A program made the translations under genes and the position numbers. From Symmetrospora coprosmae (Eukaryota > Basidiomycota > Cystobasidiomycetes > Symmetrosporaceae): 64,000 bases of DNA. The DNA lies in the NCBI GenBank assembly GCA_008802785.1, contig VUYT01000001.1:930001-994000 (forward strand), read 5' to 3'. Position 1 is the stretch's first letter; each line of letters starts with the position of its first letter. Positions 10,301-38,700 of this stretch are shown piece by piece. The notes under the pieces are model-generated. The model searched no databases, was not told where the DNA came from, and was given only the letters and a program-made list of their open reading frames with translations.

Positions 10301-12299
10301 ATGGAGAGCACACGATCCAAGCTGCCCACTTCCAACAAGTACCCTGCCCGCCTGCATGCGACAAAAGTCTTTAGAGAGCTGTACAAGCGCCTAGGGGGAG
10401 CGGCGGCTCAGGCACGCGGAGAAGAGTCCAAGCTCGTCCTGTACCTCGAAGGAAGCCAGATAAAGTACAGGGACGACACTGACAGGGAGCTGCCATTCAG
10501 GTGAGCGTGTGCGCTGTTCTGTCCCGAGTGCGCTGTCAATCCTGCGTTGCAGGCTGGCTCGGCATCGCATCGATGGGGTCGCACGCGTGACGTCGATCCT
10601 GCCAGCCTGCAGCGAAGGAACCCTCTGACTGACGGAACCCAACAACGCCTCTCCCTGCTTGCCTGCCTGCCTGCACCACACATTACACATCACACACACT
10701 CCCCTCCTCACAGGCAAGAGAGCAACTTCATCTACCTCTCCGGCTGCGACATCCCCGGCTCGCGCATCATCGCCACCTGCCTCCGCGAGAAAGAGCCAAA
10801 AGAGGAGCATGAAGATCTGCTCATCAAGGTCGTCCTCTTCATACCCGAGGTAGACGAGCTAGACGTCATGTGAGTATGCAGGCCGCCCTTGTCCGTGCCT
10901 AGATGGCCTGCTGATCGACGATCCGCCTTGCCTGATCCATCAGGTGGTCCGGGCTGCCCCTCACTCCGAAAGAAGTGCAAAAGAGCCTGGACGTGACCGA
11001 AGTGCACGACATGTCCATGTTTCAGAAGAAGCTCGACGAGCTCAAGACGCCAGTCGTGCACGTCCTCCCGTCTTCTTCGCTCCCACCGTCGCCAGAATTA
11101 TCCTCGTCCTCCGCTAAAACGCCCCGCACAAATGATGCGCATCTCCTTCTCGCTTGCCAGGAGGCGCGCCTCACAAAAACAGGAGCAGAGATCGATCTCA
11201 TCCAGCAGGCGAACGACATCACCAGCCGCGCGCACGAAGGTGTCATGAAGGCGCTTGGGGCAGGCGACAGCTCGTCAGAGTACGAGGCCGCAGCGGTCTT
11301 CAGCTACTATTGCGCCAAGAAGGGCGCCAAATCGCTCGCGTATGAAGTCATTGCCGCTTCAGGGACGGGAGCAGGGACGCTGCACTATGTGTGTAGCACA
11401 ACCGAAGCGCTTCCCGTGTCCGTGCACTGTTGACCCTTTCTCGGCTGGTTGCGTGCCTCCAGATCCGAAACAAAAAGTCCTTCCCGTCATCTGGCGAAGG
11501 GTCGCTCTTACTTCTAGACGCAGGATGCGAGTGGGAGATGTACGCGGCAGACATCACGCGCACCTTTCCCATCGGGAACGGCGGGCGATTCACGCCAGAG
11601 GCAAAGGCCATCTACCGGCTCGTGGAGGAGATGCAGGACGCCGCGTTCCTCCAGATTCGTCCGAGAGCAAATTGGGAAGAGATCCATCTTCTGATGCACA
11701 AAGTAGCAGCGGAAGGCTTGCTCAAGCTTGGCATCTTCAGGGCGCCCGTCGGGGGTATCACGAAGGAGATTCTCGACGAACTCATCGACAGTGGCTTGAC
11801 GACGGCCTTCTTCCCCCACGGGCTGGGGCACTCACTATAAGTTGCCTTGGATCTATGCTCTGCAGCTATCAAGCTGATCTTCCGCCCGTTCTGATGTATA
11901 CAGGTCTGGACGTGCACGACAGTCCGCTCGCCTCGCGTCCAAATGGTCCGAGCGATAACCCCGCCGTCAAATATCTTCGCTTCCGCCGCGAGCTGGTAGA
12001 AGGCAATGTCATCACTGTCGAACCCGGGATCTACTTCAACCCCTTCCTCCTCAAGCCTTACATGGACTCGCCTTCGCTGGACCAGGAGGTCTTGAAGACA
12101 TACATGCCTGTCGGAGGCGTTAGACTGGAGGACGAGTGCGTGGAGTACCATACAGGCGGTTAAGCGCACTCGAATCCGCTGACTCTCTGCCATACGGCCG
12201 TCCTACAGCATCCTTGTCACACGCGACGGCTACCACAACTTCACCTCGGTCAAGAGGAGCATCGAGGCGGTCGAGCGGATGTGTAGGACGAGGGCGTGA
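10301..12299 (+). CDS. Xaa-Pro aminopeptidase / prolidase-type metallopeptidase (M24B)
   Basis: Six exons: 10301-10500, 10714-10869, 10944-11388, 11463-11836, 11902-12135, 12209-12299. They sum to exactly 500 codons (499 aa). The N-terminal AMP_N-like part (KYPARLHATKVFREL, NFIYLSGCDIPGSRI) precedes the pita-bread fold. Metal ligands are visible in order: the two Asp of LLLLDAGCEWEMYAADITRT, His of GLGHSLGLDVHD, Glu of VEPGIYF and Glu of RLEDDILVT. It removes N-terminal residues before proline or cleaves Xaa-Pro dipeptides, probably in the cytosol. The fourth intron (11837-11901) starts ATAAGT and ends TATAC, so it is an AT-AC intron. Only that join gives GHSLGLDVHD. A GT-AG reading would leave a stop or the wrong phase. 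Confidence 0.9.
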
Positions 12300-31852: not shown

Positions 31853-34800
31853 ATGGGAGTGCCAGCGTAAGTCGCACCTATGTAGCGCTGTTGCACCGAT
31901 GGCAGATGCGCCCGTGGAAGAAAGGCAGGCCAGCTGGCTGACCCTGAGCGCTACGCGCAATCTTCTCCAACAGGCTATTCCGATGGCTCAGCCGCAAATA
32001 CGTGGGTGTCGACAGCGATTCCGCATGAGCCTCAATGCTCAGATCTGATTTGTGGTGCTCACCCGTGCCATACCCCCGCCGCTGGCGTTTGCTGGATGCT
32101 GGCCTGACCCTCGCAGCCCAAGATCGTACTGTGAGTAACAGCACAGCCGATGGCTGGAGCGGCTCGATGTAGAAGCCGCATCTGACACCTGCATGCATGT
32201 CCTGCCTGCCTGCGATAGTCCCGTCATCGAGGACCACCCCACCATCATCCCCAGCAGCGTTGAGGGAGAGGAGCCGACAGAGATTCCCGTCGACACGCGC
32301 AAGCCGAACCCGAACGGCACAGAGAATGACTGCCTCTATCTCGACATGAATGGCATTGTGCACCCGTGCACGCACCCAGAGGGCAAAGCGGCGCCCAAGA
32401 CGGAAGAGGACATGATGATGGAGGTCTTCAAGTACACGGAGCGCGTCGTCAACATGGCCCGCCCGCGCAAGGTCCTCCTCATGGCCATTGACGGTGTCGC
32501 ACCGCGTGCAAAGATGAATCAGCAGCGAAGCCGTCGCTTCAGGGCTGCAGATGAGGCAAAGACAAAGGCAAAGGAGAAGGAAGAAGCCATCAAGGAGTGG
32601 GAGGCTATGGGCAAGGAGATCTCGGCAGAGTATAGGAACGAGGCGGCCTGGGACTCGAATGCCATCACGCCAGGAACGCCCTTCATGGACCTCCTCGCTG
32701 CGAGCTTGCGATACTGGGTTGCCTACAAGATGAATACGGATCCCGCTTGGGCAAATCTCCAGGTCATCATCTCGGACGCCTCAGTGCCGGGCGAGGGAGA
32801 GCACAAGATCATGGACTTTGTCCGCAGGCAGCGTTCACAGCCAGGTTACGACCCGAACACCACGCACGTCTTCTACGGTCTGGTTCGTCGAGGGCTTCGG
32901 TAATCTCACACCAGAACAGTGGAAAGCCTGGCTAATGCTGTCTTTCAACACCCCTCTCAGGATGCCGACTTGATCATGCTGTCGCTCGCTACACACGAGC
33001 CGAATTTCAAGATTCTCCGTGAAGACGTCTTCGCACAGGCCGCAAAGAAGGGCTGCCACAAGTGCGGGCAACCAGGCCATCACTCGTCGAAATGCACAGG
33101 TATCACACCAGAGATGAAAGCAGAAGCCGAAGCAGCAAATAAAAGCTCGCCCCTTAAGCCGTTCATCTTCCTCGACGTTTGCGTGCTACGAGAGTACCTG
33201 GAGGTCGAGCTGGATGTGCCTGGACTACCTTTCAAGTTCGACCTTGAGCGCGCTATCGACGATTGGGTATTCATGATCTTCTTCGTTGGCAACGATTTCT
33301 TGCCGCACCTCCCCTCTCTTGATATTCGCGAGGGAGCTATCGACATGCTGCTCAAGATCTGGAGAGAAGCGCTTCCGCAAATGGGCGGCTACCTCACCAA
33401 TAACGGCAGCGTCGACCTGAAAGCCGCACAGATCATCATGGATGGCCTGGCGCAGCGCGAGGACGAGATCTTCCGCAAGAGGAAAGAGACTGAGCACAGG
33501 CAGGAGCAGCAGGATAAAGAGAAGCGGCGGAGGATCGAGGCTGCCGAGAGCGGTCGCCGGGACGGTTACGGCGGTGGGCGGCCAGGGCACCCAGCGTTCA
33601 ATGGCAATGGATCTGGAGGAGCGGGGGCGCAGAGCGAAGAGCATTCGTTTAGAAACGGACTCACGCATGTGCCTGTGCTGAGAGAGAACAAGGAGTATCG
33701 TGATCAACAGGCGCAAGCCGCCGCGTCTTCTGCTGCGCCAGCTTCTGGAGAGTCCGCTAGTACCCCGTCCCTTCCGGTCAAGCCAGCGACAGCAGGAATT
33801 GGGCCGCCAAAGCCCAAGAATCCAATGTTCGTCAGCTCCCGTCCCAACTCGGCAGCCATCCGCAGTGGATTTATCCATTCTGCACCGAATGGTCCAGCTG
33901 GCGGCGGCAAGGACGACGTCAGCAAAGAGCTCGTCGCGAACCGAGCAGCCATTCGGAAAGCCAACCTGAGTGCTGCTGAGATGCTACGCGCAGAGCTAGC
34001 CGGCGGGAAGCCCGTCTCGGCGAAGTCTCCAGACCCAGCTCCAGCGGCAGCGACTGCAGTCTCTGTCGTTTCCGCCACTGCCACTTCCGAGGAAGAAACG
34101 GAAGCCAAGCCGTCGCTTGCGTCTGTGGACCCTGTTATTGCGGCACCCTCCGAGGAAGAAGCGGAAGAGGCAAAGCCCGTGCCGATGGTCAAAGAGCCTG
34201 ACGGAACGCAGGACGCCCTCATCTCTACTCCGCCTGTCGTTCCTGAGAGCGTCGAGGAGGACGTACCCGTGTCTGCCGTTGACGGTACTGGACCAGCGAG
34301 CTCTGTTGACGTCGACGTCAAGATGGAGGCAGCCGCCAACGGCACCCCGCCCGTGCCGGTCGTTGATGAGAGTCCTCGCGGCAAGAAGCGCAGTGCGGAC
34401 GAGGCTGAGATCCCTGCCTCGCGCTCTCAGGCAGAGAAAGCCGAGGCGGAGGACGAGGGCATCAGCATGGTTGAGGATGAAGCCGATGGAGACAAGCCGA
34501 GTGCTGCTGTATCCGGCGAGAGCAGCTCCAGCGACGACGATGATGACGACGACGAGGACGACGCGGCAAATACAAGCGTCATGATCAAGCCGCATGTGCC
34601 CAAGCCCATGAAGGTGACTGGCAACATGGTCGAGCAGGAGGATACCGTCAAGTGAGCAATGTCACCAAGCTGGTCAGATTTTTCTGGACATGCCGATTGC
34701 TGACTAAGACCTTACTATCGTTCCCGAATAGACTCTGGGAACCAGGATACAAGGAGCGGTACTACGAGCAGAAGTTCGGTGTCGGCATCGAGGATGCCGA

Positions 34801-36578
34801 CTTCCGCTGGAACTGCGCCAAGCACTACGTCGAAGGCTTGTGCTGGGTGCTCGCCTACTATTACAACGGGTGCCCCTCGTGGACCTGGTATTACCCGGAG
34901 CATTTTGCGCCCTTCGCTTCCGACTTTACGAGGCTGGACGAGATGGACATCAAGTTCAACGAAGGCAAGCCCTTCAAGCCGTTTGAGCAACTCATGGGCG
35001 TCTTCCCTGCTGCTTCGTGAGTACCTAGATATCCCCCGTGTGGTACAAGCTGGCAAGCTCTCTAACGGCATTGCCTATCTACAGACGCAAGCACATTCCC
35101 GAAGCCTTCCAGGGCCTCATGGTCGAGGAAGACAGCGAGATCATTGATTTCTACCCAGAGGAGTTCCACGTCGACATGAATGGCAAGAAGATGCTGTGGC
35201 AGGGAGTTGCGTTGCTGCCCTTCATCGACCAGGAGAGACTGCTCGCCGCTCTGGCAAAACGATACCCGAAGCTGACTGAGGACGAAGTTCGGAGGAACAC
35301 CAGCGGCAACGAGGTCATTTTCGTCAACGAGGACAACCCTTTCTATAATCAAATCTGCAGCCTGTACATGAAGCGGAAGGTGGACGAGGTAAGCGAGCAG
35401 TCTGTCCAGCGGAGTCAACTATAGCTAATGCAGAGCTTTCCCATGCGTTCCAGCCCATGTCCATTGACGCTAGCCTGAGCCGGGGTATTCGCGGCACGAT
35501 CCTGCCCGACAAGAACTGCGTGCCCAATTCAACTTACATGAACCCGCTCACGACTCTGCCCCTTTCGGATCTGCAGGATGACCGGTCCATTTCGGCTCTG
35601 TGGCACATGCCTACGCAACATGTCCCGCACAAGTCGTTCATCCTGCCCGGATACCGCCAGAGCCGTCGGGTGCTGACGCCGGACGACATCAATCTCATCC
35701 ACCGCGGTTTGAGCGGAGACGACGGGCGAGGGAGGTTCCGCGGAGGTCCAGCTGGCGATGGGCTTCACTCGCAGCGGCGGACTCTGGAGCAAGGGCCTGG
35801 CTTCGGAGCGCCCAGGCGAGACGCGCGGAGCATGCAGGACCCCAGACGCAGCAATGGAGGGGGAGATAGCAGGTCTGGCTCGGGCTACAACACCCCGACC
35901 AACAGCTATGATCGGCAGTCGCAATCTGGGTACGGCGGCAGTGGCGGACGAGACGCACCTCGCTCCGGCCCCTACTCGGGCTACTCTGCTCCTCCTCCGC
36001 GGTCGGGTGGATACGACTCGCCGCAGCAAGGCTACTCTGCGCCATATGGCGGGTATGGCGGGTCATCCTCGTCGTACCAAAACCCACCTGCGCCTCCAGC
36101 TCAGCCCAGCTATGGCGGATATGGCGGCTCGAAACCTTCGTCATCCTACGGCGGGTATGGTGCTTCATCGTACCCCGGTCATCCTCCAGCTTCAAGCTAC
36201 CCTCCTTCCGGTGGACAAGGCCAGTACTCGTCATATGGCGCCCCGCCAACCTCGTCATACGGAGGATACGGAGCGGCGGCGTCCTCGTACGGCGGGTCGG
36301 GAGCGGCAGCAGGACGCGGCTATCAGCCTCCGCAAGCTGCGCCGGCATCGTCCTATGGCGGCTACGGCGGCTACGGACAGGCTCAGCCTCCTGCTGGACA
36401 GGCTGGCGGCTATCGGCCGCCCCAGGCAACGGGAGGTGCACCGCCAGCGGGAAGCTACAGCAACAGGTCGGCCATCGTGCCTGCTCATCTGCAGGGCGCA
36501 CAACAGCCGCAGGGTAGAGGGTGGCCGGCCCCATCGCCGTCCGCCCCGGCGGGACAGCATCAGCGATGGAGTAGATGA
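31853..36578 (+). CDS. rat1: Nuclear 5'-3' exoribonuclease Rat1/Xrn2 with a SYGGYG-rich tail
   Basis: Eight exons: 31853-31866, 31974-32001, 32117-32130, 32219-32882, 32961-34651, 34732-35016, 35085-35388 and 35454-36578. They sum to 1375 codons (1374 aa). The first three (14, 28, 14 nt) give [20 protein letters not shown], the canonical start. Catalytic-region markers include [26 protein letters not shown] and [16 protein letters not shown]. The Rat1-type CCHC knuckle is [14 protein letters not shown]. The second conserved block follows a long acidic linker ([29 protein letters not shown]). The last 250 residues are G/Y/S/P-rich. Rat1 degrades 5'-monophosphate RNA in the nucleus, trims rRNA and drives torpedo termination. 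It is longer than budding-yeast Rat1 (about 1000 aa) because of the linker and tail. Confidence 0.95.
35930..36440 (+). repeat. Imperfect Ser-Tyr-Gly-Gly-Tyr-Gly coding repeats at the rat1 3' end
   Basis: Codons for [14 protein letters not shown] and close variants recur many times, mixed with Pro/Ala/Gln. This is a prion-like low-complexity composition similar to FUS-type RNA-binding proteins. The repeats are degenerate at the DNA level. Confidence 0.8.
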
Positions 36579-36881
36579 TTTGCCTCGGCTACACAATACC
36601 CGGTCCTACCAAGCGAGAGCGAGCTAGCTTGATCGTCGTTGTCGCAGCGCTGTTGTACCAGTGTATGCAACATCACCCTGATCCTCTGTACTTGTGTTCT
36701 TTTCTGCTCTTTTGCCCTTGCCCGGCCCGCGCTTAAATGGTGGATCCCGGCATCAGCCGGCTCGCTGGTGGAGAAGGTCGTGCAAGTGCAGCCTTTGTGG
36801 CCACCTAACCCCCTCTCATTGCAAAGTACCAACACAACACAGGTTGCCTCCATTACCTGCAGTATCTACAAAGAAACCATC
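36579..36881. other. Intergenic, rat1 3' UTR and FDH promoter
   Basis: About 300 bp in tandem orientation. I see no RNA gene or strong motif. Confidence 0.4.

Positions 36882-38700
<1,819 letters not shown>

Follow-up and report, generated by a model that had tools for sequence, protein, structure and literature searches.

A probable AT-AC intron with U2-type splice signals in a prolidase-like gene of Symmetrospora coprosmae

The prolidase-like locus

Our analysis covered a window of 64,000 nucleotides (59% G+C) set in the 20.05 Mb, 77-contig assembly of Symmetrospora coprosmae, in which a gene of the M24 peptidase family was modelled in six exons (Table 1). The summed exons come to 1500 nt, or 499 amino acids and a stop codon, so that the "exactly 500 codons" of the initial annotation holds only if the stop is counted. 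Introns 1, 2, 3 and 5 of the model have GT-AG ends, and intron 4 alone has AT-AC ends. A Pfam search of the 499-aa protein returned AMP_N (2.5e-22) and Peptidase_M24 (1.7e-52), both over cut-off, and its top solved-structure match was prolidase chain 5mc0 (1.5e-52), which we take to be the human enzyme. The NCBIfam equivalogs for prolidase and for aminopeptidase P both matched the protein, each far under its cut-off. The earlier designation was Xaa-Pro aminopeptidase, but the top solved matches are to prolidase (Xaa-Pro dipeptidase) and not to aminopeptidase P. The predicted product is a prolidase / aminopeptidase-P-like M24B enzyme, whose substrate class is left unsettled by the sequence.

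Table 1 Features of the prolidase-like gene and of its fourth intron (positions are those of the window).
Feature	Position	Strand	Description
M24 prolidase / aminopeptidase-P-like gene	10301-12299	+	six-exon model; Pfam AMP_N and Peptidase_M24; prolidase chain match
Exon 1	10301-10500	+	model
Exon 2	10714-10869	+	model
Exon 3	10944-11388	+	model
Exon 4	11463-11836	+	ends CACTCACT, encodes HGLGHSL; Pfam M24 profile positions 73-158 (11463-11840 translated)
Intron 4, AT-AC, 65 nt	11837-11901	+	equivalent one-base slide: 11838-11902, TA-CA
5' splice site ATAAGT	11837-11842	+	sequence letters; AAGT at +3 to +6
Candidate branch site CTGAT	11874-11878	+	branch A at 11877, 24 nt from intron end
3' splice site AC (TATAC)	11900-11901	+	AG directly after, at 11902-11903
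Exon 5	11902-12135	+	starts with A, then GGTCTGGACGTGCACGAC (GLDVHD); Pfam M24 profile from position 159 (11903-12163 translated)
Exon 6	12209-12299	+	model

A DNA search of the assembly with 11463-12299 found no second copy, which makes this a single-copy locus, and no relatives of it were found among viral contigs. By scanning the six loci of other M24 matches in the same genome for the motif that intron 4 divides, we found it uninterrupted in two paralogs (L001 and L004), so the position of intron 4 is not common to them; the other four loci held no clear motif. The lack of a counterpart in these two paralogs would count against an AT-AC reading of intron 4. On the minus strand, a 196-aa open frame (11612-12202) overlaps part of exon 4, intron 4 and exon 5, and is probably a shadow frame.

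The junction between exons 4 and 5

The letters at both ends of the intron are as the initial annotation had read them, with CACTCACT followed by ATAAGT from 11837, and TATAC running to 11901 before AGGTCTGG. Joining AT to AC had been said to give GHSLGLDVHD, and this junction is also fixed by two comparisons: aligned with human prolidase, the joined protein has no gap over the junction (HGLGHSLGLDVHD vs. HGLGHFLGIDVHD), whilst against the Pfam M24 profile exon 4 alone stops at position 158 and exon 5 alone starts at 159. The predicted junction is set by homology, independently of any assumption about splice sites. We tested placements with a first base at 11600-11899 and a length of 30-300 nt. 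Of those that kept GLGHSL, LDVHD and an open frame, just two, 11837-11901 and its slide 11838-11902, led to exact GHSLGLDVHD, and GT-AG and GC-AG pairs were absent from the set. As 11837 and 11902 are both A, the AT-AC and TA-CA placements give one and the same mRNA, so the junction reads proposed earlier as a check on 11836/11902 could not by themselves separate it from 11837/11903. The accompanying claim that all GT-AG choices either retain an in-frame TAA or fall out of phase went too far: pairs with GT-AG or GC-AG ends that are open to the end are numerous (for example, 11791-11903), yet none of those tested keeps the motif, HGLGHSL being either removed or read in another frame in those listed. 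If intron 4 is retained, a stop follows immediately after HGLGHSL, and if its AT is spliced to the adjacent AG, the outcome is a frameshift, an early stop and a shortened protein.

A different odd pair could also keep the frame, for instance AA-AG splicing at 11839-11903, which would use CAG, the usual acceptor, and give GHSLCLDVHD. Its donor is two changes away from GT, however, and it places a Cys at the position taken by Gly in the human prolidase match; we find this pair, or any other odd pair, barely credible.

An assembly or sequencing error might instead conceal an ordinary GT-AG intron. Changing both terminal bases to G, the sole multiple change tried, does give an in-frame GTAAGT...TAG intron. 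We also made every single-base change in the stretch 11790-11930, one each time (423 substitutions, 564 insertions and 141 deletions), and looked for an intron, 30-130 nt long and contained in the stretch, that had GT-AG or GC-AG ends and kept both the frame and HGLGHxLGxxVHD (the leucine could also be I or M). None of the 1,128 changes produced such an intron, so a single sequencing error cannot account for the AT-AC intron and at least two would be needed, which we rate as very unlikely. At the level of the gene model, the observation of an AT-AC intron at 11837-11901 is confirmed.

The missing canonical donor could likewise mark a decaying gene, which has lost its donor G and bears AC at the other end by chance. 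Against such decay, the 499-codon frame is otherwise open throughout and carries four GT-AG introns, the metal-site motif is undamaged in its two halves, and the corresponding change at the 3' end yields the pair reported to be spliced most efficiently in yeast after GT-AG (PMC6726248, citing Parker and Siliciano 1993), which makes decay highly improbable.

Splice signals and candidate spliceosome

The donor ATAAGT agrees with GTAAGT at five of six positions, having G at +5 and complementarity to U1 from +3 to +6, but with the U12-type donor ATATCCTT (RTATCCTT) at only four of eight, and together with the CTGAT branch site this bears out the earlier view of a U2-type rather than a U12-type donor. 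The 24 nt between the candidate branch site and the intron end lie inside the 9-47 nt span of CTRAY in modelled introns, and CTRAY arose by chance in 12.8% of 5,000 shuffles of intron 4. Within the intron, the U12 branch site TTCCTTAAC was matched at no more than four of nine positions, whereas at least five matched in 1,920 of 2,000 shuffles. By our own estimate for unconstrained letters, ATAAGT...AC would be met at one of the two placements with a probability of ~2 x 4^-8 (3e-5).

For comparison, we assembled 58 GT-AG introns, of which 54 were modelled in the window and four, prolidase introns 1, 2, 3 and 5, were added by hand. The models came from a home-made gene finder, applied solely to obtain intron statistics, whose donor, branch and acceptor weights were set by the fungal consensus; a first, far too permissive version was dropped, and the second version was used. 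Intron 4 is similar to the introns of this set in length, G at +5 and branch site. In counts that lean to the fungal consensus, with A and G at +3 weighted almost equally, G was present at +5 in 57 of the 58 introns and at +3 in 50, and A at +3 in six. CTRAY occurred in 43 of the 54 modelled introns, at 9-47 nt, under a model that itself favours CTRAY, and the GTAAGT donor in none of the 54. Introns that are short and have CTRAY branch sites are in keeping with a fungal genome. AAGT at +3 to +6 is therefore unusual in the introns of the window, which counts against the AT-AC reading, as does the failure of the gene finder to choose intron 4: one version took a 113-nt GT-AG pair instead (the length of 11791-11903), and the stricter second version missed the prolidase gene altogether. 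Elsewhere in the window, two genes are arranged head to tail and only a short gap separates them (32193-38700); from their translations we take these to be an Xrn2/Rat1-like 5'-3' exonuclease and a class III alcohol-dehydrogenase-like gene. A gene finder tolerant of AT-AC ends joins both falsely, and the one AT-AC intron that our second version called, at 36575-36691, was rejected as an artefact of that join.

Across the 20.05 Mb, the pattern ATAAGT...CTGAY...TAC, which covers introns with TAC acceptors and CTGAY branch sites, had 25 matches (24 distinct donors) vs. 52 in a reversed control. We scored all 25 for coding flanks. By the weaker flank the prolidase locus was best (5.3), followed by L017 (2.7), with the rest at 1.7 or less; by the summed flanks it scored 11.9 and L030 11.6. 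Neither of these two candidates was retained. L017 (~1441-1620, G000:C11:252383) reads better with a canonical GTGAGT ~20 bases downstream of ATAAGT; here ATAAGT directly follows VLDVGCG, a motif from which we take the gene to be methyltransferase-like. In L030 (~1381-1740, G000:C48:46010), presumably an SCP2-like gene, ATAAGT by eye lies inside an apparent canonical GT-AG intron. Inspection of L013, L022, L024, L025 and L032 by eye gave nothing convincing, and Pfam matched none of the peptides obtained by joining the flanks at L024, L025, L030 and L032. Judged by flank scores, and by eye at select loci, no further match to this exact pattern is convincing as an AT-AC intron, and this too counts against the AT-AC reading.

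AT-AC ends are the classic form of a U12 intron, and removal of intron 4 by the minor spliceosome had to be weighed accordingly. The search for U11 and U12 snRNAs suggested by the initial annotation was run with Rfam models and returned neither at E up to 10, and the best U6atac score was 14.9 bits, under the 33-bit cut-off. U6 (65.5 bits) and two copies of U2 (119.1 and 100.5 bits, ~2.6 kb apart on contig C75) were found, but U1 had no Rfam match in the genome either, so the absence of the minor snRNAs weighs only moderately; the organism probably has a divergent U1. Two minor-spliceosome protein families had no match in the genome and none in any control either, which makes their silence uninformative, and a genome search with a U12-type pattern gave two matches vs. 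one in the reversed control. Cutaneotrichosporon oleaginosum is also a basidiomycete. In that one fungus, minor-spliceosome RNA genes are reported to have been detected (PMC7072748), whereas for the Ascomycota and Basidiomycota two surveys report no convincing minor introns (PMC10639083; PMC2846911). With a donor and branch region that both match the U12 forms poorly, minor splicing of intron 4 is most improbable. The intron signals appear U2-type, and the earlier interpretation is supported on substance.

Proposed splicing, origin and known AT-AC introns

We consider it probable, at roughly 0.88, that the AT-AC ends of intron 4 are real and that the ordinary U2-type spliceosome removes it. 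In the pathway we propose, U1 and then U6 would read A+3, A+4, G+5 and T+6, compensating for the absent G at +1, and U2 would pair at CTGAT. The A at the first position would be tolerated in the first step given an otherwise good donor, and the second step would need the C at the last position, the first A being matched with the last C in place of the usual G-G pair. The spliceosome would then join at TATAC, bypassing the AG directly behind it, and the resulting mRNA would encode an intact prolidase-like enzyme. AC must win this competition, because the AG that directly follows would break the frame. Parker and Siliciano (1993) reportedly gave evidence in yeast for pairing between the first and last bases of an intron in splicing. 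We infer from this analysis that splicing runs as proposed and includes the A-C pairing, the latter having been shown by others in yeast.

Two histories could account for the intron: either a GT-AG intron underwent a change at each end, or the major spliceosome captured what had been a U12-type AT-AC intron. Such a capture has been proposed for animal sodium-channel genes (PMC2831892). Here it would mean that intron 4 is the fossil of a U12 AT-AC intron whose machinery was lost in the lineage, its donor shifting from ATATCC to ATAAGT as the major spliceosome took it over, and its AT-AC ends remaining trapped because both would need to change jointly. The A at +3, rare among the introns of the window (6/58), fits this history and is equally expected of any U2-type AT-AC donor; we think the fossil history unlikely.

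Under the U2-type reading, the prolidase-like gene represents a natural case in which the reading of a conserved enzyme depends on the AT-AC pair, and the searches detected no minor-spliceosome RNA in its genome. A gene finder restricted to GT-AG would truncate or mis-join the gene. With a competing AG directly behind its AC, intron 4 offers a usable test of the first/last-base pairing rule and could also be used to ask where AT-AC introns come from, which will interest chiefly specialists in splicing.

That such introns are very rare in fungi, as was initially annotated, agrees with a published figure of 0.019% of annotated fungal introns (PMC7072748). An annotation study of three fungi puts AT-AC ends at 0.03% of the introns predicted (PMC4084796), and in Trichoderma longibrachiatum they are reported for 69 of 14,305 RNA-seq junctions (PMC4324775). 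For the basidiomycete Phakopsora pachyrhizi, an EST survey lists two "other AT-AC introns" beside ~560 U2 GT-AG introns (PMC2846911). In Ganoderma lingzhi, likewise of the Basidiomycota, 13 AT-AC junctions (0.014% of splice sites) are described, one of them confirmed by Sanger sequencing, though in another gene (PMC11590231). We found no prior description of prolidase intron 4 in the available passages of the open-licence literature, and regard it as a well-supported new case of a rare, already documented kind of intron, not as a new mechanism.

AT-AC introns that the major spliceosome removes in animals, such as intron 21 of human SCN4A, share the AT-AC ends and G at +5 (PMC2831892); intron 4 differs in that it is 65 nt long, has CTGAT as its branch site and belongs to an unrelated gene. 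The SUT635 protointron of budding yeast is likewise AT-AC, in a fungus without a minor spliceosome, but there a non-coding transcript uses both GT-AG and AT-AC, whereas in the prolidase-like gene AT-AC is needed for the protein (PMC6726248). A U2-type AT-AC intron in an Arabidopsis GFP reporter has its AC and a competing AG within a few bases of one another, as here (PMC5473141). In that reporter, however, the AC lies outside the AG and a GT-AG intron is nested within the AT-AC intron, whilst in the prolidase-like gene the AC precedes the AG and the protein would not result from any GT-AG choice.
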